Of a stretch of 57,212 nucleotides of DNA, positions 28,558 to 51,306 are shown one piece after another (the first letter of the stretch is position 1; every line of letters starts with the position of its first letter). A model generated the notes under the pieces. That model was not told where the DNA came from. It saw only the letters and a list, made by a program, of their open reading frames with translations, and made no database searches. Source of the DNA: Acidobacteriaceae bacterium (GTDB lineage Bacteria; Acidobacteriota; Terriglobia; Terriglobales; Acidobacteriaceae); assembly GCA_030041515.1 (NCBI GenBank), contig JASHNS010000059.1, forward strand, positions 1 through 57,212, given 5' to 3'. The position numbers and the translations under genes are program-made.

Positions 28558-31500
28558 ATGATTCCCCCTACTTTGGGCTCGCTTCGTCGCGCCGCCTGCG
28601 CGATTGCGTCTCTGCTGGTCTTCGCAACTTCGCCCCAGGCACCGGCTCAGATCGCGCCGGTCCGTGTACCGAATCGAATTAATCAGCCAATTCGTGAGGA
28701 TGTGCGGGTCACACTGGCTGGCTATGTCGCACCTGAGGCCAATGCTTTGAACGACCGGGGTGCAGCGCCGGGCTCTTTGCCTTTGCAGCATCTGCATCTT
28801 GTCCTCCGGCGCAGTGCGGCCCAGGAGTCCGCGCTGAAACAACTTGTCATCAGCCAGAACACGCCGGGAAGCCCCGATTACCACAAGTGGCTGACGCCGG
28901 CCCAATTCGGCGAGCAATTCGGCCCTTCAGCACAGGACATCGCCACCGTCGAAGGCTGGCTTTCTTCCCGCGGCTTCGCGGTTGAGGGGGTCGAGCCGGG
29001 TAAGCAGGTAATCGCATTCAGTGGAAACGTTGCGGAACTCCGGGATGCCTTCGGGGTTCAGATCCACCAATACCTGATCCATGGAAATCTTCACTATGCG
29101 GCAGCCAACAATCCTCAGATACCCGCGGCTCTCGCCCCGGTCGTGGGAGGGTTTGTAACTCTGAACAACTTTCGGCCACAGCTCAACGACCGCGTTCTGG
29201 GAACGGCAACCTATAATCCTAAGACCGATCGCGCGACGCCGAGCTGGACGTATGGGAATGCGTCGCAGGGCCTTAGCTTTGTCCTGTCTCCAGGGGATTT
29301 CGGCGTCGAATACGATCTGCCCACCGGCAGTGCCAAACAGGGTCAGGACGAATCGGTCGCTGTCCTCGATTTTTCCAACATCAATCTGAACCTGGTGGAG
29401 CAGTTCCGAAACCTGTTTGGCCTGCCATCATCGAACCTGCCGCAAATCGTCATTGATGGCAATGATCCCGGAATCAATGGCGTGAATAATCCCGACGGGC
29501 CATTTCCGGGAAGCGCCACTGAGTCCTATCTCGACGTCGAGTGGGCAGGGGCGGTTGCTCCGCAGGCGACCATTTATCTGGTCATTGCGGCGGACACAGC
29601 CCTGGAGAATGGAGGAATTCTGGCAGCGGAGCATGCGGTCGACAGCGATCTCGCTCCGATCATCAGTTCCAGTATCGATGTGGGCGGCTGCGAACGGAAT
29701 GCTGGTTCGCTGAACTCATTTATGTCCTCGCTTTGGGAACAGGCGGCAGCCGAGGGCATCACCGTCGTCGTGGCGGCCGGTGACAGCGGTTCGGCGGGTT
29801 GCGACAACGAGAACACGGAGGCGTACGCTGGCAACGGTCTGGGTGTCAACAGCTGGGCGTCGACTCCGTACAATGTCGCGGTGGGCGGCACCGACTTTTA
29901 CTACAGCGATTACCAGAACCTCACTGGCAGCGATTTGTCTCCCTACTGGAACCTGACGGCCACGCAGAACGCCGAAACCTCGCTGCTGAAATACATCCCG
30001 GAACAACCCTGGAATGACAGCCAGTACGGCGCGGATGCAGTGAATTCCTACAACCTGAGCGGCGAGACCAATTTGATCGCCGGCAGCGGGGGCGCCAGCA
30101 GCGCCGGAGTCTGCAGCGGCAACGACTACAGTGTCACAACTGGGGCCTGCGAGGCGGCGCAAAGCGGATATCCCAAGCCTTCCTGGCAAACTGGATTCGG
30201 GTCCGATTCCGTTCGCGACATCCCGGACGTCTCCCTTTTTGCTGCCGATGGCTACAACTACAGCTACTACCCGATCTGCGCAGAGGATGGGGACTGCCAG
30301 ACGCCATCCGGCGACAACCTGTGGCAGATCACCGGCGTCGGAGGAACCTCCGCAGCAGCTCCGACCTTTGCTGCCATCATGGCGCTGGTGGATCAGCAGC
30401 ACGGACCGCAGGGACAGGCCGACTTTGTGCTTTACCCGCTCAAAAAGCAATTCCCGGCGGCCTTTCACGACATCACGGTAGGAACGAATTCGGTTCCCTG
30501 TGCCGCGGGTTCCAACGATTGCATATCCGTGGCGAATCCAGTCGTGTTCAGTGGCACCACGGAAGGCCAGATTGGCACGGGTACGACTCCGGACTACAAC
30601 GCCGCTGCCGGGTTCAACCTTGCGACGGGGCTGGGCTCCGTGGACGCCAGCCAACTCATCGAGGATTGGGGCAACGTCCACTTCCAGTCGACGCAAACCA
30701 CATTGAGCTCGCCAACGGCCGGCGGCGTCTATACGCACGGCTCACCTGTCGCGATTCAGGGCCAGGTCGCCGCCTCTTCTGGACAAACGCCTTCCGGCGC
30801 CGTTGCCATCATGAGCGACAGCGCGATGCCGCTTCAGCAGGGGCTCAGCGCCCTGGCGCTGAGCAGTGGCGCGTTCGGTGCATCCACGTACTCCCTGCCC
30901 GGCGGCACATACCATCTCTGGGCTCAGTACAGCGGCGATGGCGCCAACGGTCCGAGCGCATCTCCCCAGGTGCAAATCACCGTCAACCCGGAGGCCAGCA
31001 CTTCCTATTTCAACGTGGTGAACGTCGCTTCTGCCTACACCGGGCAAACTGCCATCAGTGCCGGATCCAGCGTTCCGTATGGAAGCCAGCTCATGCTGGA
31101 GGATCAAATCTATGGCTCGAACTACTTTAGCCAATGCTTCTCCGGAAGCGGCACCGCCGCGATCTGCCAGAGCTATGATCGTCCCACCGGCACTGTCAGT
31201 TTCGCCGATGACGGGACTACCATCCAGACCGCGGTCCTGAATGCGGAGGGCGAGGCGGAATCCAATGCTGCCTTCGCCGTCGGCAGCCATTCGGTCACGA
31301 GCAGCTATTCCGGCGATGCCAGTTACCAGCCGTCGTCCGGATCCGCGATCAATTTCACCGTCGGCCCGGACCCGCCCGGCATTCTCCTCTCTGCTCCCGG
31401 CCAAACATCCTCGGATTCGTTCACATTCCTGACCGGACAGGCGAATGTCCTTCAGATTCAGGTTGAGAATATGGCCAACGCCGGCCTGGAAAACGCCTAT

Positions 31501-33558
31501 GGCATCGCCGCTGTGTCGCCGGTCTCAGCGCCGAGTGGAACTGTGACGGTCACAGGCCTTCCCGAAGGCGCTCAGACGATTTCGCTCATGCCGGCAGTTG
31601 ACCCGGCAGATGATTTCGTGGATGGCGTCGCTACTGTATCCATCCCTTCCACGGCTCCCGCCGGCAATTACACTCTTGGCGTCTCCTATAGCGGAGATGC
31701 TAACTACATGTCAGCTTCCGGCAGCGGGGCGGTGACACTCACCGCACCCACCCTTCTCTCTTCCACAACCACCGCCAGCATGTCGGGAGATATCTCGCCG
31801 AACAGCTCCATCACAGTGATCGGGACCGTCAGTGGTCCGTCCGGGGATCCCGCGCCCACTGGCGGCGTTACGTTCTATTCCTCCGGGAACGTCCTCGGTT
31901 CTATCGCTTTCTCATCGAGCTCGGGCAGCGTGTCCTCGTTCACCGTTACGCTGAACAGCGATGCGCTGTTCCAGGGCACTAACTTTATCACCGTGCAGTA
32001 TTCGGGGGACAGCCACTACAGCCCGTCGCAAGTGGCGCTGAACAGCGGAGGCGTGGGAAATCCGCTCTGGGATTTCTCCATCGTGCCGGAATCCCCTACC
32101 GTTCCTCTGACCGCGGGCAACAGCAGCACGGATGTCCTGCAGCTTTATTCGATCAACGGCTTCGCCGGAACGGTGAACTACACCTGCGCGGCGGCGGCCG
32201 GGATCACCTGCCAGATCGCGCCGAATTCGAGCACATTCACGGCCAACGGCACGGCAAGAGCGACCCTTACTGTCACGGCTGGCTCCGGCATCTCGAATGG
32301 CAGCTACGAAGTCTCGGTTACAGGTTCTGACTCCAGCAAAGAATACATCCACAGTGTCGGCCTCACCGCCGACGTGACCGGCTCGCCTGCAACTGGGGAT
32401 ATTGTTCTCAGCAACAGCACCAGCATCAATGTGACGACGGGAAGCAGCGGCACCTCGACGCTTACGGTGATGCCGCAGAACGGATTCACGGGACAGGTGA
32501 ACTTCCGCTGTAGTTTCAATGGCGCGCCGGCAGGGATTTCATGTGCCGCACCCTCCGTCAGTATCGGCGGCACTGCGCCCACCACGTCCATTCTGACCGT
32601 GACGGCGTCGGATGAAGCGGCGGCGGGAACCTACACCGCAACCGTAATCGCCACGGACGCCGCCACTGGCACGATCAGTTCTTCCACCACGGTGCCCGTC
32701 GCTGTCGTGATCGCGGCAGCACCGGCGTTTACAATCACGAGTGGCAGCGCGATCAGCATGGCTGCGGGGAGCACCGGAACTACCACACTGACGGTGACCC
32801 CCGCCAACGGCTTCACCGGCAACGTGAATTTCTCCTGCACGATCGCCGGATCACCGACAGGGCTGTCCTGCACCGCGCCCGCGGCTACGGTCGGCAGCAC
32901 AAGCCCAGTCAACTCTACACTTACGGTATCGGCAACCAGCAGCGCAGCGCCAGGCAGCTACGCGGCAACCGTAACTGCTGCTGACGCCGCTACGGGAATG
33001 ATCACCTCCGCAACGAACGTTTCGATCACCGTCGCGGCTATATCTCAGAACCCCTCGTTCGCCCTCAACAACAGCGGAAACATCCGTCTTACGGCGGGCA
33101 GCAGCGGGACTTCTACCATTACCCTGACGCCGATCAACGGCTTCACCGGTTCCGTCGGCCTCTCGTGTTTAGTCTCCAGTCCGGCCAATGGGGTTGGGTG
33201 CAGCCTGTCTCCAAGTTCAGCGAGTGTGACCTCAGGCGCCGTAACGGCGACACTAACCGTATCCACGAGCGCGTCCAGCGCTGCCCTCACATTGCCACTG
33301 AGGAAGCTTGTCACGGGGGCGGGAGGAGCGGCGCTTGCCCTGGTATTGTTCTTCGGCATTCCGACGCGACGCCGGAAATGGCAGTCACTTTTCGGATTGC
33401 TGGTCATCGTGGTGACCATCGCAGGGAACGGCTGCGGAAGCGGCAACGGGAGCCAGGGAGGGCAGCCCCAAAGCGCCACTTACAATGTGACGATTACAGG
33501 AGTTTCCGGATCCCTGACGCAAACCACGGCGCTCACGGTCACAGTCAACTCGCAATGA
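28558..33558 (+). CDS. S53 (sedolisin/kumamolisin) protease with Ig-like repeats
   Basis: A 1666-residue exported acid protease. Signal peptide at 1-31; pro-kumamolisin activation domain at about 50-200 (PGSPDYHKWLTPAQFGEQFG); catalytic domain at about 225-705. The expected residues are present: Glu 322 and Asp 326 in ESYLDVEW, oxyanion Asp 409 in AAGDSGSAGC, and nucleophile Ser 598 in GVGGTSAAAP. About 850 residues of Ig-like beta repeats follow (units ending HSVTSSYSGDASYQPSS, VTLTPxNGFTGxVxFxC). The C-terminus has a basic stop-transfer-like segment, one or two membrane helices (GAGGAALALVLFFGIP, LLVIVVTIAG), a Cys, and a last beta unit. GAGG lies nine bases before the ATG. It probably digests extracellular protein from a cell-attached position. 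Confidence 0.9.
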   Translation: MIPPTLGSLRRAACAIASLLVFATSPQAPAQIAPVRVPNRINQPIREDVRVTLAGYVAPEANALNDRGAAPGSLPLQHLHLVLRRSAAQESALKQLVISQNTPGSPDYHKWLTPAQFGEQFGPSAQDIATVEGWLSSRGFAVEGVEPGKQVIAFSGNVAELRDAFGVQIHQYLIHGNLHYAAANNPQIPAALAPVVGGFVTLNNFRPQLNDRVLGTATYNPKTDRATPSWTYGNASQGLSFVLSPGDFGVEYDLPTGSAKQGQDESVAVLDFSNINLNLVEQFRNLFGLPSSNLPQIVIDGNDPGINGVNNPDGPFPGSATESYLDVEWAGAVAPQATIYLVIAADTALENGGILAAEHAVDSDLAPIISSSIDVGGCERNAGSLNSFMSSLWEQAAAEGITVVVAAGDSGSAGCDNENTEAYAGNGLGVNSWASTPYNVAVGGTDFYYSDYQNLTGSDLSPYWNLTATQNAETSLLKYIPEQPWNDSQYGADAVNSYNLSGETNLIAGSGGASSAGVCSGNDYSVTTGACEAAQSGYPKPSWQTGFGSDSVRDIPDVSLFAADGYNYSYYPICAEDGDCQTPSGDNLWQITGVGGTSAAAPTFAAIMALVDQQHGPQGQADFVLYPLKKQFPAAFHDITVGTNSVPCAAGSNDCISVANPVVFSGTTEGQIGTGTTPDYNAAAGFNLATGLGSVDASQLIEDWGNVHFQSTQTTLSSPTAGGVYTHGSPVAIQGQVAASSGQTPSGAVAIMSDSAMPLQQGLSALALSSGAFGASTYSLPGGTYHLWAQYSGDGANGPSASPQVQITVNPEASTSYFNVVNVASAYTGQTAISAGSSVPYGSQLMLEDQIYGSNYFSQCFSGSGTAAICQSYDRPTGTVSFADDGTTIQTAVLNAEGEAESNAAFAVGSHSVTSSYSGDASYQPSSGSAINFTVGPDPPGILLSAPGQTSSDSFTFLTGQANVLQIQVENMANAGLENAYGIAAVSPVSAPSGTVTVTGLPEGAQTISLMPAVDPADDFVDGVATVSIPSTAPAGNYTLGVSYSGDANYMSASGSGAVTLTAPTLLSSTTTASMSGDISPNSSITVIGTVSGPSGDPAPTGGVTFYSSGNVLGSIAFSSSSGSVSSFTVTLNSDALFQGTNFITVQYSGDSHYSPSQVALNSGGVGNPLWDFSIVPESPTVPLTAGNSSTDVLQLYSINGFAGTVNYTCAAAAGITCQIAPNSSTFTANGTARATLTVTAGSGISNGSYEVSVTGSDSSKEYIHSVGLTADVTGSPATGDIVLSNSTSINVTTGSSGTSTLTVMPQNGFTGQVNFRCSFNGAPAGISCAAPSVSIGGTAPTTSILTVTASDEAAAGTYTATVIATDAATGTISSSTTVPVAVVIAAAPAFTITSGSAISMAAGSTGTTTLTVTPANGFTGNVNFSCTIAGSPTGLSCTAPAATVGSTSPVNSTLTVSATSSAAPGSYAATVTAADAATGMITSATNVSITVAAISQNPSFALNNSGNIRLTAGSSGTSTITLTPINGFTGSVGLSCLVSSPANGVGCSLSPSSASVTSGAVTATLTVSTSASSAALTLPLRKLVTGAGGAALALVLFFGIPTRRRKWQSLFGLLVIVVTIAGNGCGSGNGSQGGQPQSATYNVTITGVSGSLTQTTALTVTVNSQ

Positions 33559-33655: not shown

Positions 33656-34447
33656 TCAGAGTGGCGCTTCGGTCAACCTCAGGATTTCGTCGGCAGCCTG
33701 TGCGGCGTCCATACGTGTGCCCGTATAACAGCGGGCATCCGCGGCAGCACGCTGAAATTTGTCGAGCAGGTCAGGCGCTTCCGCCAATACGTGAGGGGTA
33801 TGGCGCAGAAGAATCAGCAGACCGTGGCTCTGTGGAACTTTGACGACGTTCCAGCCATCGGTTTCCCGATAGTCCAGCTCCATGATCCAACCAATCGGAG
33901 CCGGTTCACTCGCGATGGAAGCGTGGCAGTCCTGAGGGAGCAGGGGCGTTTGGACAGGCTTATCGTTGCGGAGCAGCAGCGGCCTTGCGTAAGGGTGAGT
34001 TCGCCCCTCGATGTCGATCAAAGCATATTCATCGGACATGTAGGTCGCTCCTCGCCGCAGTAATTCCGCTACCATGGAGGACTTCCCCGAGTGTGTTCGC
34101 CCCGGGAGGAGCAGGACACGATCGCCAAGCTGAACGGCGCCGGCATGCACTGCGCGAAGGGTCGTCAACTGGCCGATGATCGACTCGTCGATCTGGTGAA
34201 TCAGATCCGGTACCAGGCCAATCGCATGACTGGCGGCCGCGATCTGCACTCCGTTGATCAGCAGCAAAACCTCACCGCCGGAGTTTTCGATTTGAATGCG
34301 CAGGTCAGGAGTGGTCGCAGACTCTGTCAGGCGCGGAAGAGACGGAAAAAGGAAGCGGTCGAGAACGTCGTAGCCGTCCTGGCAAGAGGCCGCAGCCCGG
34401 AGATGGCAACCGAACGCAGCAATCTCAAAGGGCAAAGGACCGGCCAT
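33656..34447 (-). CDS. HPr-kinase-like protein linked to a PqqD protein
   Basis: A 263-residue protein with an HPr-kinase/PEPCK-type P-loop: RAVHAGAVQLGDRVLLLPGR at about 98-117, then the P-loop GRTHSGKSS (116-124), then YMSDEYALID (136-145), which supplies the acidic residues. It lacks the N-terminal and C-terminal parts of true HprK. Such short HprK-like kinases are known beside PqqD proteins and in some lasso-peptide clusters, where they phosphorylate the peptide or a substrate not yet known. It lies 166 bases downstream of the PqqD gene on the same strand, behind a weak terminator-like hairpin. Ribosome site weak. The catalytic core looks intact, so activity is plausible. Confidence 0.8.
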   Translation of the reverse strand: MAGPLPFEIAAFGCHLRAAASCQDGYDVLDRFLFPSLPRLTESATTPDLRIQIENSGGEVLLLINGVQIAAASHAIGLVPDLIHQIDESIIGQLTTLRAVHAGAVQLGDRVLLLPGRTHSGKSSMVAELLRRGATYMSDEYALIDIEGRTHPYARPLLLRNDKPVQTPLLPQDCHASIASEPAPIGWIMELDYRETDGWNVVKVPQSHGLLILLRHTPHVLAEAPDLLDKFQRAAADARCYTGTRMDAAQAADEILRLTEAPL

Positions 34448-34529
34448 ACGGATTTCCAGTGGACGCAGCGCTCTCGAGCCAATTCGGCGAGCACACGAAG
34501 GATCTTGCGACTGCCCGTGCGATTAAGAA

Positions 34530-34544
34530 GGCTCTAACGGAGCC
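34530..34544 (-). terminator. weak terminator or attenuator between PqqD and kinase genes
   Basis: On the minus strand a GGCTC-loop-GAGCC hairpin (5-bp stem, 5-base loop) is followed by TTCTTAAT. The stem is short and the T tract imperfect, so partial termination that lowers kinase expression relative to PqqD is the most it could do. Confidence 0.3.
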
Positions 34545-34613
34545 GACAGCCTACGGACGAGAAGGATTCCGCAACAGGCCGATCGGCTCGAGGAAGATTA
34601 CGATGGATTTTCG

Positions 34614-35177
34614 CTACCACCAGCCGCCGGGGGGTTGTGAACCGCCCTTGTTGCAGTTCTGGTCAAAGAGCCAGTTGTCTCCGCAACCCTTGTCGCCGCC
34701 ATTGTTCCCGCCGGGATTATTGCCGCCGGGATCATTGCCACCGGGCCAGTTGCCGCCCGGCCAGTTGCTGCCGGGGCCCTTGCCCGTCATGGCGGAGCCC
34801 GTCGTGCCGGCATAGGCCCGCTGCTCCCGCATGGTCATCGCCACGACCAGCGGAACAGCGGCGACACCCAATTTGGCGATAAACGCCCGGCGGGACGAGG
34901 CTGTAGGCAGCGCAACAGCCGCGGAAACGAGATCCTTCTCCTGGAGCTGGGCGATGGCTTCTTCGACGACTTGATCCGAAACCTCAGTGCCCAGCGAGCG
35001 CCGCATTTCCTCTGCAGCACTGGCGAGGGTGGTCGGCGCACCGCAGGCATCCCAGGCCGCGCCCGCGATACCGTTGAGAGCCACGACTCTCTCGTTCTTG
35101 GAATCAACGAGTAGTCTTGAACCATCAGGCAGTTTGTTTTCTATAAGCTCGTCTGTATTTTTCCGCGTGATCAGCAT
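34614..35177 (-). CDS. PqqD-domain protein with internal Tat-like signal and Gly/Asn-rich tail
   Basis: A 187-residue protein in three parts. Residues 1-88 are a PqqD-like (RiPP-recognition) winged-helix domain: LVDSKNERVVALNGIAGAAW, then EEMRRSLGTEVSDQVVEEAI and LQEKDLVSA. Residues 94-123 are a canonical twin-arginine signal, SSRRAFIAKLG with a hydrophobic run VAAVPLVVAM and an AYA-G cleavage-like site at 121-124. Residues 124-187 are a low-complexity tail with NWPGG/NDPGG/NNPGG repeats, two Cys (165 and 175, nine residues between) and a WW end. The start at 35177 (ATG) has GGAG upstream; the frame is open to 35258. Read literally, the PqqD domain would remain cytosolic while the tail is exported folded. 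This is an inference. PqqD proteins with such signals do occur in acidobacteria; their role is unknown. Confidence 0.8.
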   Translation of the reverse strand: MLITRKNTDELIENKLPDGSRLLVDSKNERVVALNGIAGAAWDACGAPTTLASAAEEMRRSLGTEVSDQVVEEAIAQLQEKDLVSAAVALPTASSRRAFIAKLGVAAVPLVVAMTMREQRAYAGTTGSAMTGKGPGSNWPGGNWPGGNDPGGNNPGGNNGGDKGCGDNWLFDQNCNKGGSQPPGGWW

Positions 35178-35703
35178 CTTCCGCTCCAGCTTTAGATCCT
35201 CTTCCCGGCAAAGTGCAAGCCTTTGGGGGGAAAGAGCAGAGCCTTCATTTAAGCACACCCCCGCAGGATGTCACTGGGCCCCAGGTAATGAAAAATAAAG
35301 CTTTTAGTAATCTGATAATCTTGGGCAGGTAACCCTGGCCCTGTCCCATGTACCGGACGTCCGGTTCACCAACGCCCACCGATACGTAACGCTGATGCGG
35401 GTAAGCTTTCACTGGATCGGGGTAGCCACTTGGTAATAGCCTTTCTCGTTGGGTCACCGGACGGCAATTTGCCTGCGCCGATACTGAACCCAGTTTCCAC
35501 CTCATGTTGGGATCTCACGCGGAACGATTCCGAGACCGATTTCCGTGCGACACTTTGGGCGATGCGTGTTCCGCCGCGGATGAGAAACTGCCTGAGAGCA
35601 GGATTCTATCGATTGCCGACAGGATGAATTGCCAGACTCAATCGGAACTTCAGAGCTGCTTACAGGTCGGGGGCATGGCGCCGTGCCTCCTGTTTCGAAA
35701 CCT
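35178..35703. other. divergent promoter region of the PqqD and nucleotidyltransferase genes
   Basis: About 525 bases with no supported gene. It is AT-richer than its surroundings near 35290-35325 and contains the perfect 14-base palindrome ACCGGACGTCCGGT at 35352-35365; a half-site-like CACCGGACGG recurs at 35456-35465. This is a candidate operator for control of both divergent genes. Confidence 0.4.
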
Positions 35704-36852
35704 ATGCCGATGACAATCGAAAAGCCCAGCCAGGACCTGTTGATAGCGGTCTTGCGCGATGCGACCGATTCTGGAACGATCCGCACTCTGGCGGACGCAA
35801 TGGCCAATTGGGATGATCTGATCGATCTGGCGCTGCAGCATTGCGTTTTACCCCTGCTGTTCGCGAGATTGGAGGAAATGGGCCCAGCCGTTCCCGCCAG
35901 CGCTGCGGGGCGCATCCAGCTTGAATTCGACCGAATGGTTCTCCACAATCTCGCGAACGCGGCCGAACTGATTGCGGTCCTGCAACTATTCAATCGCGAA
36001 GGCATGCAGGCAATGCCCTTCAAAGGTGTTGTGCTGGCTGCCTCCGCATACGGCGACATGCTCAACAGGCAGAGTGGCGATCTGGATGTTCTGGTGCGGA
36101 AAAGCGACCTGCCTCGCGCGACGAAAGCGCTGCGGGAACGTGGATATGAACTGGAGACGTCTGTTCTGGCGGACGGGACGCCCGAGGAGCCGAGACTCCA
36201 CGAATACAAGTTGCGGCGACGGGCAGACGGACGCGAATTAGAGCTTCGCTGGAGGCTCGATCTGAATTGGGGCCGGTACGGCCGCGATCTGGGGATGGAT
36301 TGGGTGTGGCCCAGCCACGCAACGACGGTGCTGGCGGGAGCGGTGGTTCCCACTCTCAACCCTGAACTGTCGCTGCTCATGCTCTGCATGCATGGCTGCA
36401 AACACTACTGGTCGAGGCTCATATGGGTGTGTGATATCGACAAAGCGATCCATGCGAATCCGGATCTTAACTGGCCTCTGGTGCTGGCCGAAGCGAAACG
36501 CCAGGGATTAAGCCGGGCGCTGGGACTTGGCGTGATGTTGTCGGTCCGTATGTTGCAGACGAAGGCTCCCCAATCCGTTCTCGACCAATTCGGGAAGGAT
36601 AAAACGCTTTGCCGCCTGACGAACCACTTCGCAGCAAACATGGTGGCAAACCCCGGAACAGGACCAAGAGCACGCGTACCCTACGGATTCCAGATGCTCG
36701 ATTTCCGGGACCGGTTGAGATTCATTCTTTCCGGGGATTATCTGCGTCCCAACGAGAGGGACCGGGATGCGTTCGGTTTGCCGGAATGGCTCAGTCCGCT
36801 GAGTTTTCTGCTTCGGCCGATCCGCCTGCTGTTGGACCGCTCGGCGCGATGA
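35704..36852 (+). CDS. nucleotidyltransferase-fold protein (PF14907-like)
   Basis: A 382-residue protein of the uncharacterised nucleotidyltransferase family. The nucleotidyltransferase core is PFKGVVLAASAYGDMLNRQS followed by GDLDVLVRKSDLPRATKALRERGYE, with the expected acidic pair in DLD and a third acidic residue in LELRWRLDLNW. The rest is helical (LSLLMLCMHGCKHYWSRLIW). Members often lie beside PqqD and HPr-kinase-like genes and in lasso-type clusters; their substrate is not established. The frame is open upstream to a TTG at 35629 behind AGGATG; I use the ATG at 35704 but the start is uncertain. Divergent from the PqqD gene. Confidence 0.8.
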   Translation: MPMTIEKPSQDLLIAVLRDATDSGTIRTLADAMANWDDLIDLALQHCVLPLLFARLEEMGPAVPASAAGRIQLEFDRMVLHNLANAAELIAVLQLFNREGMQAMPFKGVVLAASAYGDMLNRQSGDLDVLVRKSDLPRATKALRERGYELETSVLADGTPEEPRLHEYKLRRRADGRELELRWRLDLNWGRYGRDLGMDWVWPSHATTVLAGAVVPTLNPELSLLMLCMHGCKHYWSRLIWVCDIDKAIHANPDLNWPLVLAEAKRQGLSRALGLGVMLSVRMLQTKAPQSVLDQFGKDKTLCRLTNHFAANMVANPGTGPRARVPYGFQMLDFRDRLRFILSGDYLRPNERDRDAFGLPEWLSPLSFLLRPIRLLLDRSAR

Positions 36853-36978: not shown

Positions 36979-38847
36979 TTAGAAATTCGAAGCCAGGCGG
37001 ACCCTTACGCTCGCCCCGTGGTTGGGATGGGATTCGAGAATCATGTCTCCGTTCGCAGACTGAACTCTCTCCCGAATGGATTGAGGCCCTTTGCGGATCG
37101 CTTCGAGCTGAGCAAGCGACAGGCAACCAGAGAAATCGAATCCTCGGCCGTCGTCCTGGATCACAACTTCCCACGCATCTTCGCGCGCAGTCAAACGAAC
37201 TTCCACGGTTCGGGCACCGCTGTGTCGTCTGACGTTGCTCAGAGCTTCTTCGACGACGCGGACCAGATCTTCGCTTATCTTATGCGGAATGGCGTCTTCG
37301 TCGACGTCACAAACGAATCGCGTCACAATGCCGGACTCTCGCTGGAAGGCTTCCAGTAAGTCCGTCAAGCACGGCCGGGCCTGCTGAGAGAAATCGCTGG
37401 CACGCAGCCGGTCCATTTCCTCACGGATTTTTCGCACTTCTTCCCGCAGGATATTCTGTACGGCTAACACCGTTTCCGAGGAGCCTTCGCCGCGACGCGT
37501 TGCCAGATTTCTGCGCCTGAGCAGGTCGAGCTGGATTTCGGTGGCGATTAGCGACTGCACCACGCCGTCATGCAGATCGCGCGCGAGACGGCGCCGTTCA
37601 ACAGCGCGTACGCGTGCCTTGGTGTGCTGCCACTGGTAGAAGTTGTAGAGAGCGGGCCCGACTTCTTCGGCCAGACGATGCAGCAAACGAAGGGAAAGCT
37701 CCCTTCCACCCGCACAGGCGGGATCCACGACAAAAACGCGGCCCGACCACTCGCTGCCAAACTGCAATGTCGTTGTGAGAAGGGTTCGAAAAGGCTGATC
37801 CCATCTGAAGGCACCGGAGAAGGTCTCGGGCAATGCGTTGACGCGGGCTCCGGTCCGATCGAGCGCGAAGCAGTCCAGGGCATGGCCGACACGCGAACAT
37901 GCGAGGGACCAACAGGTCAGCGGAAGTGGCCAGAAGTAGCGGGCTTCACCCGACTCGGGCAGATTGCGATACAGCGGCCCGTCGGGATGATCTCCGACGC
38001 CCCATTGAAACACGTGCAATGCGGAGGAATTCCTCAAAACCAGGACCACTCGCTTCGCGCCGAATATCTCCACGAGCACGGGCAATATTTCCCGAAGATT
38101 GGCTTGAATACCGGCATCCGAGCGCAGGCACTGGAGAATACTCTGTACCGCATATGCCTGCTGTTCCCGCTCCGTCCACCGCGCTGTGTAGGTGAGGAAT
38201 CCTCCCAGAACAAGCAGGATGGCGGCCTTCACGGCAAACGAGGCTGGATACAGTGGGCCTTCGAAAAGGTGAAAAGACGGAAAAGCAGAAGACACTGCAA
38301 GGGCGGACTCGCCCAGCACAATCAATATCCCAAGCAGGGGAATGATGATGGCTTTAGGCACCGTACGGCGGTACGGCGCGGCGAGGAGCGCGAACATCAG
38401 CAGGAGGAGAAACGGACTTGCGAGGCAGCCAGTAAACAAGCAGAGAACGCATGGCCAAACGACATCAGAAATGTGAATGAGGGTGATGGGAAGCAGGCCG
38501 GGATCCGGCCCCCGGTAAAGCCTCACGACCAAAATGAGGCTGGAGATGCCGTATCCCAAAAGGATCACCAGCAAAGCAGGCCCCTGCAGACCTGCGAGCG
38601 GCCGGATAAGCGGGAACGCGGCCAGCAGGATCAAAGCCATCAGGAGGCGAAATAGGGATAAGACCCGCTCCCGGAAAACGGTCTTGCCGAAAGGCAATAA
38701 TGCAGATCCAGCCGATGACGGCAACCAAACCCCAAGGCTCATAATCGGCTCTCCCAAGCCGAAAGCTGCGGCAATTTGCGAGCGCATCTGGAAATCGCCA
38801 TTCGGACGCCAGAGCCCGCTGCTTGATTCGCGAAGGACGGGAGCCAT
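36979..38847 (-). CDS. NarX-like membrane sensor histidine kinase
   Basis: A 622-residue kinase. Five to six membrane helices fill residues 65-240 (LFRLLMALILLAAFPLI, PALLVILLGYGISSLIL, PFLLLLMFALLAAPY, AAILLVLGGFLTYTARW). A GAF-like stretch at about 255-420 is followed by a HisKA_3 domain with phospho-His in RRRLARDLHDGVVQSLI, and an ATPase domain with VVEEALSNVRRHSGAR and QDDGRGFDFSG. It is the likely partner of the divergent regulator gene at 39341, 490 bases away. Its signal is unknown; the location upstream of the exopolysaccharide genes suggests control of them. The start ATG at 38847 follows GGAAA; an in-frame ATG lies 35 codons further in. Confidence 0.9.
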   Translation of the reverse strand: MAPVLRESSSGLWRPNGDFQMRSQIAAAFGLGEPIMSLGVWLPSSAGSALLPFGKTVFRERVLSLFRLLMALILLAAFPLIRPLAGLQGPALLVILLGYGISSLILVVRLYRGPDPGLLPITLIHISDVVWPCVLCLFTGCLASPFLLLLMFALLAAPYRRTVPKAIIIPLLGILIVLGESALAVSSAFPSFHLFEGPLYPASFAVKAAILLVLGGFLTYTARWTEREQQAYAVQSILQCLRSDAGIQANLREILPVLVEIFGAKRVVLVLRNSSALHVFQWGVGDHPDGPLYRNLPESGEARYFWPLPLTCWSLACSRVGHALDCFALDRTGARVNALPETFSGAFRWDQPFRTLLTTTLQFGSEWSGRVFVVDPACAGGRELSLRLLHRLAEEVGPALYNFYQWQHTKARVRAVERRRLARDLHDGVVQSLIATEIQLDLLRRRNLATRRGEGSSETVLAVQNILREEVRKIREEMDRLRASDFSQQARPCLTDLLEAFQRESGIVTRFVCDVDEDAIPHKISEDLVRVVEEALSNVRRHSGARTVEVRLTAREDAWEVVIQDDGRGFDFSGCLSLAQLEAIRKGPQSIRERVQSANGDMILESHPNHGASVRVRLASNF

Positions 38848-39340
38848 TTTCCGGCATCTGGCAGTGAATCAACTGCTTAGCACATGTCGACAGGATCGAC
38901 GAGTGCGATTGTTCCGGCTCCGCGATGTAATTAAGCGCCTGAATGAAGCAAGCGGCGAAAAACGCACCAGAATAAAAGAGAACCCAATGTAACAAGCGCG
39001 TTCCAGGGAGTCAAGCTAAATCAGGAGTTCCGCCGTGGAGCCCAGAACCCCGGTTGTTCCAGAACGCGCCATTTCCGCCGAGAGCGTCCCCCATGGCGCG
39101 GCCCTCGATAGACGCCGAGGTGCGCCCCAAACGCCGCCCCGATCCGACCGCCAGCAGGTTTCTGCGTTCACATTTGAGAACAACATAGGTTACTACCGTG
39201 GTGACACGAAAGTAGCATTTTGAGCAACATCTGGCACTATATACTTGCGCGTAAAGCGGCAATAAGCCTCTGATCGGTGCGCCGGCCACGGAACTGCGTT
39301 GCGCCGAGCAGGTAGTGTGCTCATGGCCCAAGGAGCGTTA
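38848..39340. other. divergent promoter region of kinase and regulator genes
   Basis: About 490 bases without a supported gene. It contains TAGGTTACTAC at 39185-39195, a motif that recurs as TATGGTTACTAC at 40080-40091 before the PilZ gene. A TATACT box at 39239-39244 could be a -10 element, but no -35 at proper spacing is clear. Confidence 0.35.
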
Positions 39341-40027
39341 ATGGCTTCCCTGCCCAGGACTTCGTTCTCTCCCATCCGAGTGTTGATCGCCGACGATCAT
39401 TCCCTTTTCCGGGAGGGATTGCGGAAACTGATCGAGTCTGAGGCGGGATTCGAGGTGGTCGGGCAGGCATCGGACGGTGAAATGCTGCTCGATATGGCCC
39501 GAGAGCAACAGCCGGACCTTATCCTTCTGGACCTGGCCATGCCCCGCCAGGATGGAATGCAGGTGCTCCGCGAGCTTGCGGCGGCCGAGGTTCCGGCTCG
39601 AACTCTGGTACTGACAGCCTCCATCAATAAATCTCAGATTGTACAAGCCTTAAAGCTGGGAGCCTACGGTGTAATCCTCAAGGAATGCACCACCCAAAGG
39701 CTCTTCGACAGCATTCGCTGTGTCATGGCCGGCCAATACTGGATTGGCCGTGAAAGCGTCTCGGATCTCGTCCGTGCGCTTCGCAGTGTTGCCTCGTCGG
39801 AAGCTGGATCCCGTTCTAAAGACTTCGGGCTTACACCGCGAGAGCTCGAAATTATTACCCTGGTGGTGGCAGGGTATTCCAATCCCGAAATTGCTCAACG
39901 CTGCTCGATCAGCGAGCAGACAGTCAAGCACCATATGAGCAATGTGTTCGATAAACTCGGAGTCTCAAACCGACTGGAACTCGCCTTGTTCGCCGTGAAT
40001 CACCAGCTCACTGAATCGGTGGCCTGA
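39341..40027 (+). CDS. NarL/FixJ-family response regulator
   Basis: A 228-residue regulator: receiver domain with VLIADDHSLFREGL, phospho-acceptor Asp at about 64 in LILLDLAMPRQDG, and Lys in GVILKEC; LuxR-type DNA-binding domain with LTPRELEIITLVVAGYSNPE and SEQTVKHHMSNVFDKLGVSN. The ATG at 39341 has AAGGAG seven bases upstream and is preferred over the ATG at 39323 and the TTG at 39299. It is divergent from its probable kinase and points into the exopolysaccharide locus, whose first genes carry repeat motifs upstream that could be its binding sites. Confidence 0.93.
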   Translation: MASLPRTSFSPIRVLIADDHSLFREGLRKLIESEAGFEVVGQASDGEMLLDMAREQQPDLILLDLAMPRQDGMQVLRELAAAEVPARTLVLTASINKSQIVQALKLGAYGVILKECTTQRLFDSIRCVMAGQYWIGRESVSDLVRALRSVASSEAGSRSKDFGLTPRELEIITLVVAGYSNPEIAQRCSISEQTVKHHMSNVFDKLGVSNRLELALFAVNHQLTESVA

Positions 40028-40864: not shown

Positions 40865-41485
40865 ATGCAATATCCGCAGCTCAGTCCGGCACCCAACGAC
40901 GAACGTTTTCCCTGGTGGGCGCTCTATACCCGCCATCAGCACGAAAAATCAATTGCTGATGCGCTGTCTGCGAAGGGATTTGAAGTATTTCTGCCAGTGT
41001 ACGACTCCGTGCGGAAGTGGAAAGACAGGCGCAAGGTCCTGTCCCTGCCACTCTTCCCCTGCTATGTTTTCGTGCGCGGCGCGATCAATCGCCGGCTGCA
41101 GATCGTGAGCACGCCCGGTATTCATATGATTCTTACCCGCGGCGAGCGGTTCGCCTCCATACCCGAAATGGAGATTGAAGCTATTCGCAGGACCGTCGAG
41201 GGAAATTTCCGGGTAGAACCTCACCCCTTTCTGAAATGCGGGGATCGAGTTCGTGTTACTCGCGGATCGCTGCAGGGTATTGAAGGAATTCTCGTCCGCA
41301 AGAAGAACATCTTTCGCCTCGTTCTCTCGGTTGAGATGCTCGCCCAGTCCGTAGGCGTGGAAGTAGATGCTGCAGACATAGAACCGGTACGAACTCCCAA
41401 CGGACTCTCTGCAGCCACAGGAGGTTTCGTACCTGCAGCCTCCGCAACGGTAGAATCCGCTCTGGCCATGGGCTCAGCTATTTGA
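40865..41485 (+). CDS. NusG/RfaH-like transcription antiterminator (UpxY-type)
   Basis: A 206-residue NusG-family paralogue. N-terminal NGN domain: WWALYTRHQHEKSIADALSA, then FLPVYDSVRKWKDRRKVLSL, then PLFPCYVFVRG; C-terminal KOW domain: GDRVRVTRGSLQGIEGILVR. Such specialised NusG proteins bind RNA polymerase and allow read-through of long polysaccharide operons, which fits its place as the first gene of a run of co-directional genes reaching the end of the window. The last 30 residues are an Ala-rich extension. No ops-like element could be identified with confidence in its leader. Confidence 0.9.
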   Translation: MQYPQLSPAPNDERFPWWALYTRHQHEKSIADALSAKGFEVFLPVYDSVRKWKDRRKVLSLPLFPCYVFVRGAINRRLQIVSTPGIHMILTRGERFASIPEMEIEAIRRTVEGNFRVEPHPFLKCGDRVRVTRGSLQGIEGILVRKKNIFRLVLSVEMLAQSVGVEVDAADIEPVRTPNGLSAATGGFVPAASATVESALAMGSAI

Positions 41486-41514
41486 GAAACCCCAGCAGAC
41501 CACCAGGAGCAGCT

Positions 41515-42171
41515 ATGATCGTTCGGCTCACCCGCTCGTCCCTTAATTTTCTCTTCATCGGTTTCTTCTGCGTGAGCGTGGCGAGCGCTGCCGCTCCCGA
41601 AATGCCTCTTGCTATTCAGGCATCCCCATCAGGTCCTCTGTCGCAGGCTTCCGCAACCGGAACGGGCAGCGGAAGCGCTGCCGCTCCTGACTATCTGATT
41701 GGGGACGACGACTTGCTCGAGATCAACGTCTGGAACGAACCTGATCTCAAGCAGTCACTCCCGGTGCGATCTGATGGAAAGATCACCTTACCGCTGATTG
41801 GGGAGATTCAGGCAGCGGGTAAGACGCCTTCGCAGCTGCAACAGGCAATTGCTTCCAAACTCAAGGCCTACGTCAACAATCCGGCTGTGACGGTGATCGT
41901 GCTGCAGATGAACAGCCGCAAGTTTAATATCCTCGGCCGCGTCTCAAAGCCTGGATCTTATCCCCTGACGGCCACAACCACCGTGCTCGATGCGATTGCC
42001 GAGGCGGGTGGTTTCCAGGACTTTGCCAGGCAGAAGGACATCTACATCCTTCGAAAAAGCTCCTCCGGCCGGGAAACAAGGCTCCCGTTCAACTACAAAG
42101 CAGTTATCCAGGGAAAACATGCGGAAGAAAACATTATTCTTGAGCCGCATGACACAGTAGTCGTCCCCTGA
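41515..42171 (+). CDS. polysaccharide export protein, Wza-like
   Basis: A 218-residue exported protein. After a signal peptide (SLNFLFIGFFCVSVASAAA) comes a polysaccharide export (poly_export) domain, DYLIGDDDLLEINVWNEPDL ... VRSDGKITLPLIGEIQAAG, then an SLBB domain (FNILGRVSKPGSYPLTA ... TTVLDAIAEAGGF). No lipobox Cys follows the signal, unlike Wza, as in many exosortase-type loci. The ATG at 41515 has AGGAG nearby; an in-frame TTG at 41482 is less likely. It should form the periplasmic/outer-membrane conduit with the barrel protein encoded next. Confidence 0.93.
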   Translation: MIVRLTRSSLNFLFIGFFCVSVASAAAPEMPLAIQASPSGPLSQASATGTGSGSAAAPDYLIGDDDLLEINVWNEPDLKQSLPVRSDGKITLPLIGEIQAAGKTPSQLQQAIASKLKAYVNNPAVTVIVLQMNSRKFNILGRVSKPGSYPLTATTTVLDAIAEAGGFQDFARQKDIYILRKSSSGRETRLPFNYKAVIQGKHAEENIILEPHDTVVVP

Positions 42172-42181
42172 GAGACGCGCT

Positions 42182-43510
42182 ATGGCGAAGAAGATTGTGG
42201 CACTTTATGCTTTGCTGTTAGCCACGGCCCCCGCATGGTCGCAGGCAGCCGGTGGGGGTGCTGCGAATTCGTCTCAGATGCTTATGCCTCCGCCCATCAG
42301 TGCGGTTGGATTCCCGGTCGAAACAAGCGGAGAAGAGAGATCAAATTATTTGAACGGCGGCATTACATTTAACGGCGGGTATGTAAACAACCTCTATCCG
42401 GGCACCGGAACAACAACCATCAATGAGGCGCTGTATCTGGTGCAGCCAAACATATCGGCCGATCACACGACGGACCGATCCCACGAGACGTTCACCTACG
42501 CTCCTGCTTTCACGTTCTACAACCCCGACAGCACATTGAACAGCGTAAATCAAATGGGGAACGCGAGATTCCAATACCGGTTCAGCCCGCACGTAACATT
42601 TGCGGCTGGAGATGGGGTGACGAAAACATCGAACGCGCTGAGCGAGCCATTGTTGTCCGGGCCAGTCTCAGGAGAACTTCCGCAGGTAACTCCCGGGCTG
42701 ATCGTGCCGTTTGCGCCGCAGCTCTTCAACAGCGCCTACGCTCAACTGGGGTGGCAGTTTTCGCTGAACGATATGCTCGGGTTCGACGGGGACGCAACGT
42801 TGCTTCATTTTTCCAACACGCCGGAAGCGAGTGGCCTGTACAACTCGAATTCGCGAGGTGGAGCGGCATTCTACACACATCGCCTGAACGAGAGGCAGTA
42901 TCTCGGGGCGACCTACGAGTATTCTGAGATCATCGCAAACCCCACTATCTCGAACGGTATCGCCGAAGCGGATCTGAACGCGGACACGCTGCTTGGTTTC
43001 TATACGGTTTATCCAAAATCGAACCTTTCGCTCTCGTTCGGCGGCGGTTCGCAGCGCTACAGACTGACGCAATCGCCGATTGCGGCGGCCGAGGCGTGGG
43101 CACCGTCCGCGCTGGGGAGCATCGGGTGGCAGGGTGTTCACACGAGTTTCGCTTTGACCTACAGCCGCATCGTGACGGAGGGGTCAGGCGTTATCGGGGC
43201 TTACGACACAAACGCGGCAACTTTGTCATGGCATTGGCAACTGTCCCGAAGCTGGAGGGCGAGCCTGGGCGGTAACTATTCAGACCTTGCGACTGTAGAC
43301 CGGTCGTTTGCGGGTTCGCTTCCCGGAGGCCACACGTTGTCCGGAGCTGTCACCGTTGGACGCCAACTGGGAGAGAATTTCAGTTTTTCCGTTCAGTATC
43401 AGCGAATTCATGAGGACTACGCAGGAATTTCCGCAATATCGAATGCCCCGAACAGTTCCCTGGAATCGGGTTCGATTACCTATCACTTCTCGAGACCGCT
43501 GGGACGGTGA
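42182..43510 (+). CDS. outer-membrane beta-barrel protein of the exopolysaccharide locus
   Basis: A 442-residue protein with a signal peptide (VALYALLLATAPAWSQA) and many alternating aromatic beta strands (NARFQYRFSPHVTFAAGDGV; YLGATYEYSEIIANP; GSQRYRLTQSPI), ending ITYHFSRPLGR. The strand pattern, size and position between the export protein and the chain-length protein match the EpsL/porin-like barrels of exosortase-type loci; the exact family is not certain. It begins 11 bases after the export gene. Role: probably part of the outer-membrane exit path. Confidence 0.7.
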   Translation: MAKKIVALYALLLATAPAWSQAAGGGAANSSQMLMPPPISAVGFPVETSGEERSNYLNGGITFNGGYVNNLYPGTGTTTINEALYLVQPNISADHTTDRSHETFTYAPAFTFYNPDSTLNSVNQMGNARFQYRFSPHVTFAAGDGVTKTSNALSEPLLSGPVSGELPQVTPGLIVPFAPQLFNSAYAQLGWQFSLNDMLGFDGDATLLHFSNTPEASGLYNSNSRGGAAFYTHRLNERQYLGATYEYSEIIANPTISNGIAEADLNADTLLGFYTVYPKSNLSLSFGGGSQRYRLTQSPIAAAEAWAPSALGSIGWQGVHTSFALTYSRIVTEGSGVIGAYDTNAATLSWHWQLSRSWRASLGGNYSDLATVDRSFAGSLPGGHTLSGAVTVGRQLGENFSFSVQYQRIHEDYAGISAISNAPNSSLESGSITYHFSRPLGR

Positions 43511-43515
43511 GTGCA

Positions 43516-45195
43516 ATGCCTGAAGAGCTTATCGAGCAGGAAGAGTCGAAACCGTTCGATATAGAGCGTGTGTACGACCTCGTCCGGAGAAGGCACATGC
43601 AATTCCTCATTCCGCTGCTCTTCGGATGGTTTCTTGTGTGGGCAGCAAGCTGGATCTTGCCTGTGCGATACAGTTCGACTACGACCATTCTGGTACAGCA
43701 GCCTACGGTGCCCAAGAATTACGTGGACCCGAACATCAATGATGACGTGCAAGCTCGCCTGGCCAGTCTCACCCAGCAGATTCTGAGCCGCACGCGTCTG
43801 CTTCTGATCGCTACTCGGCTCCATCTTTACCAGGATTCGGAAAGGACTCTTGCGCCTGATCAGATCGTTGCGAGAATGCGCGATGATATCGGCATCGACC
43901 TGGTACGTGATCCTCAGACTGAAGCGATCACTGGGTTCACCGTTTCCTATTCCGCCCCTTCGCCGCGCCTGGCGCAGAGCGTGGTGAGCGAATTGACCGG
44001 CCTTTTCATTAGCGAGAACCAGTCCACTCTGCAGCAGGAATCGGAGAGTACTACAGAGTTTCTACAGCAGCAACTCTCAGATGCGCGCACCAATCTGGCA
44101 GCCCAGGACGCGAAGGTGAAGGCTTTCCAGGCGGCCCACGAAGGCGAACTTCCCACGCAGGAGGCCAGTAATCTCCAGATTCTGAGCGGACTCCAGGCCC
44201 AACTGCAGAATGAAGAGGACGCACTCAATACTGCGCAGCAGCAGCGCGTTTATTTCCAGTCTCTGATCGAGCAATATGACTCGCTGCGGTTGCCTGCCCA
44301 GGGTCCGAGCGGCGCGCCGACAGGTTTGGCCGCAGTCGATGAACAACTGGCAAAGATGAAGGCGCAACTCGCCGATCTCCGCGTCCGCTACACGGATGAA
44401 TATCCTGCCGTTCAGAACCTGAAGACTGAGATCGCCGCCGCGACACGACAGCGGGACCAGTTGGCTGCCGAACTGGCCACTCGCGCCAGAGCTTCGAAAA
44501 ATCAATCCGCAAGCAATGCGCCGGCCGCAACGGATTCCACCACAAGCACTGCTGTCCTGCAGGTCCAAAGTCAGTTGCAGGCAACGCAGACCGATATTAC
44601 GAACCGTCAACATGACATCGCGACATTGCAGGCCCGGATCAATACTTACCAGGCTCGTCTGAACGCAGAGCCGGGGAGTGAGGAACAGCTGGCAGATCTG
44701 ACCCGCGGATACGAGCAATCTCAGGCCAATTACAACGACCTTCTCAAAAAAGAGAGCGATTCCGCGATGGCCACCAGCATGGAGCAGATGCAGCAGGGAG
44801 AGCGCTTCAGCGTGCTCGACCCACCCAGTCTGCCGATTAAGCCGGATTCTCCCAATCGAATCAAGCTGTGCGGCGTGGGACTGGCCTGCGGTCTCCTCCT
44901 TGGCCTGGTGGTTGCGGGCGGTCTCGAGTTCCTGGATGATCGACTCCATAATGAGAAGGACATCGAGAAACTTCTTCCCGTCGCAGTGATGGGCGATATT
45001 CCGGAGATTCGGACCGCTGCCGAGGAGAGACACCTCAGGAGGAGGGAGTTGCTTGGCTGGGCTGCGTGCGTTCTGGTACTCCTGACGATCGCTGCCGGCT
45101 CCGGAGTCAATTACCTGTACGCGACAGGGTCGGGACTTCACCTGCACATGCTGTCATCCTGGCGACACCTGTTCGGATCTCTGCGCCATGTATAA
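43516..45195 (+). CDS. chain-length determinant (GNVR/Wzz, GumC-like)
   Basis: A 559-residue inner-membrane polysaccharide co-polymerase. Helix 1 (FLIPLLFGWFLVWAASWILP) at about 33-52; Wzz base domain with SSTTTILVQQPTVPKNYVDP; long coiled coil at about 150-400 (LQQQLSDARTNLAAQDAKVK); GNVR-like segment before helix 2 (LCGVGLACGLLLGLVVAGGL); then a short cytosolic loop and a third helix near the end (WAACVLVLLTIAAGSGV). It closely resembles the exosortase-linked chain-length proteins. GTG at 43507 overlaps the previous stop; the ATG at 43516 is my choice. It works with the tyrosine kinase two genes on. Confidence 0.92.
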   Translation: MPEELIEQEESKPFDIERVYDLVRRRHMQFLIPLLFGWFLVWAASWILPVRYSSTTTILVQQPTVPKNYVDPNINDDVQARLASLTQQILSRTRLLLIATRLHLYQDSERTLAPDQIVARMRDDIGIDLVRDPQTEAITGFTVSYSAPSPRLAQSVVSELTGLFISENQSTLQQESESTTEFLQQQLSDARTNLAAQDAKVKAFQAAHEGELPTQEASNLQILSGLQAQLQNEEDALNTAQQQRVYFQSLIEQYDSLRLPAQGPSGAPTGLAAVDEQLAKMKAQLADLRVRYTDEYPAVQNLKTEIAAATRQRDQLAAELATRARASKNQSASNAPAATDSTTSTAVLQVQSQLQATQTDITNRQHDIATLQARINTYQARLNAEPGSEEQLADLTRGYEQSQANYNDLLKKESDSAMATSMEQMQQGERFSVLDPPSLPIKPDSPNRIKLCGVGLACGLLLGLVVAGGLEFLDDRLHNEKDIEKLLPVAVMGDIPEIRTAAEERHLRRRELLGWAACVLVLLTIAAGSGVNYLYATGSGLHLHMLSSWRHLFGSLRHV

Positions 45196-46117
45196 AGAGT
45201 TCTTCGGTCTTTCACGAAACCCGTTTAATCTCACGCCCGACCCGGCGTCCTTTGTCTCGACAGAGAGACATAACGAGGCGCTTGCCGCGCTGCATTACGG
45301 TGTGCGCCAGCACAAGGGATTCGTGGTTGTCACCGGAGAGGTGGGTACCGGTAAGACCTTGTTGCTGCGCTGCCTGCTTCGGCTGCTAAAGGACAGCAGC
45401 GATATCGCCTCTGCTTATCTCTTTAACAACCGGCTGACCCCACTTGAGTTCTACCAATTCATGCTCACTGACTTCGGGCTTCCCGCTGCAGGAAAGAATA
45501 AAGCCGAACTCCTGCTGGAGATAAGCCAGTTTCTGTTATCGCGTTCCTCTCAGGGGTTGACTACAGTTCTGATCATCGACGAAGCTCATCATCTTTCGGA
45601 GGATCTGCTCGAAGAGATTCGGCTCCTCTCAAACCTTGAGACTTCAGACGATAAGCTCATCCAGATCATCCTGGCTGGGCAACCCGAATTGGATATAAAG
45701 CTTGACTCGTTCGGATTGCGGCAACTCAAGCAGAGAGTTGCGCTGCGAGCCACCCTGGCCGCTCTGTCTCGTCAGGAGACAGTCGACTATATCACCCAGC
45801 GCCTGCAATTGGCGGGGGCAGATCCACAGCGTGGCTCGATTTTCCCTGAAGAGACCATCTCTGCCGTATACCGGTATTCCTGCGGCCTTCCCAGATTGAT
45901 TAATACGCTCTGCGAAAACTCGCTCATCGGTGCCTACGCAAAGAAGCTCCCTGTGGTCAGTACTGGAATCGTTGATGCGGTTGCGCGGGAATTCCGACTC
46001 GACCCTCTGCTCACGGGTCGACTCAATGATCCAAATTCGGAATGCGCGCTCGATTCGGATGACGTCTTCCTCGATGTACTTTCAACTCTCGGCAGCCCAT
46101 CCCAAACCAGGATCTGA
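45188..46117 (+). CDS. ExeA-like AAA ATPase of exopolysaccharide locus
   Basis: A 309-residue ATPase. Start MYKEFFGLSRNPFNLTPDP is diagnostic of the ExeA/GspA-type family; Walker A GEVGTGKT, Walker B VLIIDEAHHL, and sensor region LIQIILAGQPEL are intact. The family member found in exosortase loci has the same size and place. It overlaps the preceding gene by eight bases, so they are translationally coupled. Its mechanical role in export or assembly is not settled. Confidence 0.92.
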   Translation: MYKEFFGLSRNPFNLTPDPASFVSTERHNEALAALHYGVRQHKGFVVVTGEVGTGKTLLLRCLLRLLKDSSDIASAYLFNNRLTPLEFYQFMLTDFGLPAAGKNKAELLLEISQFLLSRSSQGLTTVLIIDEAHHLSEDLLEEIRLLSNLETSDDKLIQIILAGQPELDIKLDSFGLRQLKQRVALRATLAALSRQETVDYITQRLQLAGADPQRGSIFPEETISAVYRYSCGLPRLINTLCENSLIGAYAKKLPVVSTGIVDAVAREFRLDPLLTGRLNDPNSECALDSDDVFLDVLSTLGSPSQTRI

Positions 46118-46152
46118 GCGAGCCTTCCGCGCTATCCCAGAATTGAGAAGCA

Positions 46153-51233: not shown

Positions 51234-51306
51234 GCGCAGGAGAGCACTTGTGCGATCGGCTCGCCAAGTCGCGTCGCTCTCCGCACGATAACTTTATCGA
51301 GCTCGT

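Follow-up and report, generated by a model that had tools for sequence, protein, structure and literature searches.

The window analysed here is the whole 57,212-nucleotide contig JASHNS010000059.1 of an Acidobacteriaceae bacterium, whose genome comprises 4.77 Mb in 123 contigs. Between positions 33,656 and 36,852 it carries three genes: one for a protein that joins a PqqD-like domain to a twin-arginine translocation (Tat)-type signal and a short tail, one for an HPrK-like kinase and one for a PF14907-type nucleotidyltransferase.

The three genes and their predicted products

The PqqD-Tat-tail protein is encoded on the reverse strand at 34614-35177; its ATG start codon (35175-35177) is preceded by GGAG and its stop codon lies at 34614-34616. 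A sequence-only reading of this DNA had described a PqqD-like domain, the motif SRRAFIAK, a hydrophobic run, AYA and a tail of 64 residues containing NWPGG-type repeats and two Cys and ending in WW, and each of these elements was found in the 187-residue translation. Residues 1-86 (34920-35177, reverse strand) make up the domain, which belongs with the RiPP (ribosomally synthesized and post-translationally modified peptide) recognition elements (RREs): PF05402 was matched over residues 23-84 with 25.4 bits (cut-off 23.4). The structure model had block means of 90-96 for residues 1-80 and 85 for residues 81-90, with a poor tail. Foldseek returned TigE as the best match (E 1.8e-3) and TbiB1 with its leader next (E 5.1e-3), none lying below 0.001. 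Using VIA-align on model residues 1-89, TbiB1 with leader came out on top (Z 8.3, root-mean-square deviation (rmsd) 2.7, 86 residues aligned), other RREs were also matched, and DNA-binding winged helices were not far behind (Z up to 7.0). As judged from the model, the N-terminus of the protein has the RRE winged-helix fold. The predicted fold is like that of TbiB1, lasso B1 (6jx3), NisB, MccB and TruD, whereas the domain in the window is fused to a putatively exported tail. Behind it, the segment P109LVVAMT is predicted to form a short strand (residues 111-115 of the model), and the VIA-align row for NisB with the NisA leader extends to model residue 118.

Downstream on the same strand, at 33656-34447, lies the gene for the 263-residue kinase, recognised by alignment and predicted fold and by a match to TIGR04352 below the cut-off of that model, with H101, the P-loop G121-K122 and the acidic pair D139-E140. 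Across 39 kinase rows, H101, G121-K122 and D139 were invariant, the second acidic residue being Glu140. The sole solved structure matched by the sequence profile up to E 0.1 was HPr kinase (E 0.059). In VIA-align, the model (mean pLDDT, predicted local distance difference test, 94.9) was aligned with PEPCK 1ii2 (Z 14.8, rmsd 4.4, 250 residues) and with HPrK/P 1kkl (Z 13.7, rmsd 2.9, 132 residues). The modelled kinase belongs to the PEPCK/HPrK fold, and the earlier assignment of a P-loop HPrK-like kinase downstream of the PqqD gene holds. The divergent nucleotidyltransferase that had also been proposed is encoded on the forward strand at 35704-36852 and scored 187.3 bits against PF14907 (cut-off 31.2); its start is uncertain (TTG at 35629 or ATG at 35704 or 35710). 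A GD(L/I/V)D motif is present in its aligned close homologues, and we take PsmN, from the pseudomycoidin lasso-peptide system, to be a member of the same family. A genome search found a single PqqD protein and a single PF14907 protein of their families in the host.

An invariant serine in a variable tail

The signal spans residues 95-123 (34809-34895, reverse strand) and, on the homologue alignments, comprises S-R96-R97, P109LVV and EQRAYA. R96 and R97 were invariant in 51/51 rows of alignment A2, whose rows were picked with a profile covering that region and which leaves out 8 of the 58 listed relatives. The pair was likewise present in 33/33 non-redundant close homologues (frames of at least 120 aa, scoring above 150 bits and distinct in their last 60 residues; the truncated L064, L067 and L068 were excluded). 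When 19 close proteins were aligned, the invariant columns from residue 94 onward were R96, R97, A107, P109, V111, A123 and S128. In the set of 33, the predicted -1 residue is Ala in 31 and otherwise Ser or Thr, and position -4 is Lys or Arg in 31. Basic residues near the cleavage site fit the avoidance of Sec by Tat signals. With its RR pair before a hydrophobic stretch and AxA, the signal is by sequence of the Tat type, and TatC is present in the host genome in one copy (232 bits).

The tail (residues 124-187; 34617-34808, reverse strand) is rich in Gly, Asn, Pro and Trp. Its fifth residue, Ser128 (codon TCC, 34794-34796, reverse strand), is the candidate modified residue: Ser occupied mature position +5 in 33/33 close homologues, whereas entropy was 2.75-3.8 bits at +1, +2, +4 and +6 to +12, position +3 being Ala in 28/33. 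These counts are uncorrected for relatedness, and the argument rests on the contrast with the neighbouring columns. The Ser128 codon was TCG in 17 homologues, TCT in 6, TCC in 5, TCA in 5 and AGY in none; the constant use of TCN with all four third bases indicates that selection acts on the residue itself. Averaged over 528 pairs, pairwise identity was 0.55 in the PqqD domain, 0.62 in the signal and 0.24 in the tail past Ser128, compared with 0.21 for shuffled tails (300 sampled pairs), so that the conserved leader and variable core typical of RiPP precursors are seen. Tails of the close family are 10 to 65 residues long and include poly-Pro and RDRD runs. The NWPGG repeats and WW end are accordingly not a conserved tail; the sequence-only reading had itself named, among the findings that would speak against it, homologues in which the tail and the RR motif are absent or random, and for the tail a nearly random sequence is what we observed beyond Ser128. 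A tail in which Ser alone is conserved resembles a carrier more than a defined bioactive peptide.

Gene company and distribution

Among 200 genomes of the order, 21 had a PqqD-protein match in a protein search; two of these matches, both in genomes with no kinase hit, are weak and were judged to be non-members (G079, E 4e-4, an 813-aa frame; G003, E 5e-5, whose region matched no family model). The kinase family was found in 20 of the 200, 19 of which also had a PqqD-protein match. In the kinase-only genome, G186, PqqD and Tat-tail frames adjoin an interrupted kinase; at this locus (L120:8385-10818) the PqqD part and a Tat-knottin tail occupy two successive frames, by decay or as a natural split. 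Among 30 close loci, the window included and 11 named loci omitted as duplicates of unnamed ones, the kinase lies downstream on the same strand in 25 and a divergent nucleotidyltransferase scoring above 100 bits is present in 20. The proposed co-occurrence of RR motif and kinase with the PqqD protein was thus borne out family-wide, by the invariant RR pair, the 19 genomes and the 25 loci.

This synteny was compared with control regions taken at fixed coordinates in six relatives' genomes, 0/20 of which matched any of the three models. The nucleotidyltransferase was found in 18/19 family regions; PqqD protein and kinase are present in 19/19 by construction, the loci having been chosen for both, and the comparison leaves out L027, L028 and L035 among others. 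At 23 wider loci, the close-family model detected the kinase in 17, the nucleotidyltransferase in 15 and both in 11, and a broader model added the nucleotidyltransferase in L102, L105 and L109, giving 18 with the nucleotidyltransferase and 14 with both. A single kinase can accompany tandem PqqD-Tat genes with differing tails (four in L062; two in L032, L039 and L063). Two Bryobacterales metagenome-assembled genomes (MAGs) have the kinase fused behind a GT2-like domain (L056:8479-10572 and L067:6556-8646); PF00535 matched this domain in L056 with 32.3 bits (cut-off 23.3), and L067 is 91% identical there. L056 has an additional second kinase frame. In L100 and L101 a glycosyltransferase 44-46% identical is encoded as a separate frame between the kinase and PqqD genes, and the window has no clear match to the L056-type glycosyltransferase (best E 0.14).

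Scanning named genomes with the close-family profile gave 24 loci, all in Acidobacteriota. Edaphobacter lichenicola X5P2 and Acidobacterium sp. S8 are two named bacteria that carry the set. In 396 genomes of the phylum, a profile search found 22 loci; the window and G054 account for two of the 30 matches listed. Neighbours were surveyed in 20 regions from this search, several weaker matches, including the PqqD-only L096, lying outside the survey. Most of the divergent relatives fetched carry Cys-rich tails behind the PqqD-Tat module, and in 20/22 of these a Ser or Thr precedes the first Cys by one or two residues (L100, with a Cys in the PqqD domain, was left out). Knottin-like Cys spacing was seen in the tails of L111:7898-8383 (C-x6-C-x5-CC-x3-C-x4-C), L115:4896-5414 and L120:9563-9742. 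A Ser at +5 is retained at two G212 loci (AFA|QGAGS, the bar marking the predicted cut), and the tails of L045 and L121 are longer and end in ALGLPPL. The latter, L121:8492-12250, lies in a genome of the same genus (G132) and is a second kinase/PqqD-Tat/nucleotidyltransferase set; it contains a tandem pair of PqqD-Tat genes, both encoding long tails that end this way. The family reaches Gemmatimonadota: a Gemmatirosa kalamazoonensis plasmid (L126) encodes a kinase, a PqqD-Tat-Cys protein and a nucleotidyltransferase within about 4 kb, one frame separating the last two. Its PqqD-Tat protein (L126:7037-7570) weakly matches TIGR04117 (25.6 of 50 bits), a model for radical-SAM targets that contain Cys repeats. 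A plasmid search with the window PqqD protein gave no match; with the L111 protein it gave 14 records, 13 from Halobacterium, and the one examined is a tail-less 115-residue PqqD protein.

Elsewhere in the window, a sensor histidine kinase and a LuxR-type response regulator (36979-40027) adjoin the nucleotidyltransferase, and a gene at 28558-33558, convergent with the kinase, encodes a secreted protein of 1666 residues that on visual inspection is an S53-type peptidase carrying Ig-like repeats. Ig-repeat neighbours were considered as an enriched companion and set aside: they occur in 4/19 family regions against 1/20 controls (three queries, the same four loci). The window repeat protein itself was found in 1/19 against 1/20, and the L042 propeller protein in 2/19 against 0/20. 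An exopolysaccharide-type cluster at 40865-56107 encodes a NusG-like antiterminator, Poly_export, an AAA ATPase, a Bac_transf sugar transferase and a Wzy_C ligase. The sequence-only reading had found no lasso, peptidase, radical-SAM or transporter gene in the window; this stands for the 13 window open reading frames (ORFs) scanned against Pfam, which are those the check covered, except that one of the 13 encodes a polysaccharide-export protein.

Proposed function, alternatives and known systems

The above findings suggested that the PqqD-Tat-tail protein may be a self-presenting substrate that is phosphorylated on its Ser, perhaps acquires a sugar or nucleotide there in a further step, and leaves through the Tat pathway; our confidence in this reading is evenly balanced. 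The earlier suggestion that the PqqD domain acts in cis on a Tat-exported tail remains the best fit, with the correction that the tail sequence is unconserved and one Ser is kept. In such a system, the RRE/PqqD domain would hold or position the following segment in cis and recruit the HPrK-like kinase, which would phosphorylate Ser128 just past the signal-peptide cleavage site. The PF14907 enzyme, joined in a few relatives by a GT2 glycosyltransferase, may subsequently attach a sugar or nucleotide to the phosphoserine. Tat would export the tail: since Tat carries folded proteins and can pass bulky or folded cargo, it would suit a modified one. Signal peptidase would cut after AYA, releasing a 64-residue tagged peptide while the RRE domain stays inside.

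Phosphorylation of Ser128 and its elaboration by the PF14907 enzyme are predicted by analogy with lasso kinases and PsmN. According to the available text of PMC9266682, phosphorylated lasso peptides (paeninodin, PadeK/ThcoK; pseudomycoidin, PsmK and PsmN) likewise involve a His-Lys-Asp kinase and a conserved Ser; the lasso kinases, with His-Lys-Asp-Asp, phosphorylate this precursor Ser before maturation, and a nucleotidyltransferase-like enzyme elaborates the phosphoserine, PsmN placing a hexose on it. Unlike lasso systems, the window set has the RRE in cis with the substrate, a Tat signal and an internal Ser at +5, and its host genome yielded no PF13471 lasso leader peptidase (E 0.001). No asparagine-synthetase-like cyclase was found among the 13 window ORFs scanned, PF00733 not having been searched genome-wide. 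A neighbour family seen in L042 and L043 was entertained as an 'AsnS' lasso cyclase and rejected, Pfam identifying one member as an NHL-propeller protein; no cyclase was found there.

Several observations weigh against the self-presenting substrate. Glu140 of the window kinase sits where the lasso kinases carry their second Asp in the available text of PMC9266682. Cys-tailed relatives as a rule lack Ser exactly at +5, L103 and one L110 protein have no Ser or Thr just before the first Cys, and L114 has a kinase with a three-residue tail devoid of Ser. Five of the 30 close loci lack the kinase: L047 and L064 end at a contig or locus edge, and L028, L050 and L068 have sequence on both sides, though their genomes or MAGs hold another, kinase-bearing locus. 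Six of the 23 wider loci have no kinase nearby. Ten close loci have no nucleotidyltransferase above 100 bits (L026, with a match of 39-48 bits only, L027, L028, L032, L049, L050, L053, L060, L063 and L068), less than 3 kb of upstream sequence being available for L049, L053, L063 and L068. PF14907 occurs in 141/200 genomes of the order, too commonly for the nucleotidyltransferase alone to serve as a marker, a use that we rejected. Lastly, S20 of the PqqD domain (PDGS) was invariant in 19/19 aligned close homologues, with TCN codons using four third bases in the 33; judged from its conservation, it could be a phospho-site or merely structural. The main uncertainty is whether the kinase targets S128, the equally invariant S20 or neither.

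This last point bears on a different reading, which we regard as possible and hold tentatively: the protein would be a membrane-anchored adaptor, with an uncleaved signal anchor and a disordered spacer as its tail, and the enzymes would act on the PqqD domain (e.g. on S20) or on another partner. The invariance of S20 fits such an adaptor, as do the nearly random tail past Ser128 and the almost tail-less L114. However, a spacer would not require a Ser that never varies and always lies equally far from the conserved AxA, tandem genes that differ in their tails beside one kinase are not readily explained, and the Cys-tailed relatives, many of which have the kinase, carry DEVLVYD or a similar sequence in place of the DGS-type Ser at S20.

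The self-presenting substrate also has a bolder version, which we consider doubtful. The RRE would be a built-in chaperone of the Tat signal: P109LVVAMT would dock in the leader groove, as a RiPP leader does, and hide the signal until Ser128 has been loaded by the kinase and its partners, whereupon the tail would be handed over to Tat. The resulting peptide would serve as a carrier of a phospho-glycan or phospho-nucleotide linked through Ser. If this were true, the tail sequence apart from Ser would be irrelevant, and the family would define a novel class in which peptide modification is tied to proofread export.

That the tail is a bioactive secreted peptide, an antimicrobial or signal with a RiPP-like core made hypervariable by diversifying selection, appears unlikely to us. 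It would account for a conserved leader with a variable tail, for tandem precursor genes and for the Cys-rich, knottin-spaced tails of relatives, and ABC_tran in 3 of 90 scanned neighbour frames makes a transporter near some loci possible. Yet the range of tail lengths from 10 to 65 residues and the homopolymer and simple-repeat expansions look like low constraint, and no peptide-maturation family was prominent among the first 25 of 106 neighbour families listed. It is more improbable still that the set acts as a phospho-switch on the exopolysaccharide cluster (40.9-56 kb). The window does continue with genes of the NusG-like, Poly_export, Bac_transf and Wzy_C types, and L034 has three neighbour families in common with it (the NusG-like family, Poly_export and that of the following frame) and L037 just the NusG-like family, but a NusG-like neighbour was found in just 3 of 21 compared loci, the window included, other loci having different neighbours; exopolysaccharide linkage as a general rule was rejected on this count. 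A degenerate lasso-peptide cluster is scarcely credible: lasso clusters, too, contain HPrK-like kinases, nucleotidyltransferases and B1-type RREs, as far as the available sources describe them, but the kinship suggested earlier is contradicted by the genome, which without a lasso leader peptidase does not point to a lasso cluster, by a Ser that is internal rather than C-terminal, and by the lack of any lasso family among the proteins of 8 relatives scanned or the first 25 of the 106 neighbour families listed.

For the preferred reading of a self-presenting substrate, the nearest described arrangements share some features and differ in others. HPr-rel-A likewise pairs an HPrK-related kinase (TIGR04352) with a PqqD-family protein (TIGR04353), but its cut-offs are not reached in the window: the kinase scored 40.8 of 200 bits, the PqqD protein gave no TIGR04353 match at E 1, and the relatives L101 and L126 matched TIGR04353 weakly (28.6 and 23 of 35 bits). 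No paper naming the two models was found in the open literature searched. According to the available text of PMC12710340, DUF2063-type RREs work with DUF2282 precursors that also bear an export signal, but there the precursor, with a Sec signal, is a protein distinct from the RRE. The same text gives 21% of PF05402 proteins as exceeding the length of a discrete RRE without another Pfam domain, and RRE-tail fusions would fall undescribed within this long group. In the titles and abstracts of the open literature searched, no description of a PqqD-Tat fusion or of an RRE fused to its own exported tail was found. Each part is already known; an RRE, a Tat signal and a tail in one protein with its own kinase appear, from sequence, to be a new arrangement.

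In existing descriptions, the RREs that read RiPP leaders either stand alone or are fused to an enzyme, and here the reader is apparently fused to its substrate through a Tat signal. If this is true, one family joins RiPP logic, HPrK-type phosphorylation and Tat export. The reading yields a prediction at the level of a single residue, S128, for the kinase and nucleotidyltransferase. It also provides a signature for mining Acidobacteriota and Gemmatimonadota: a PqqD domain, RR, AxA, Ser at +5 and an adjacent kinase.

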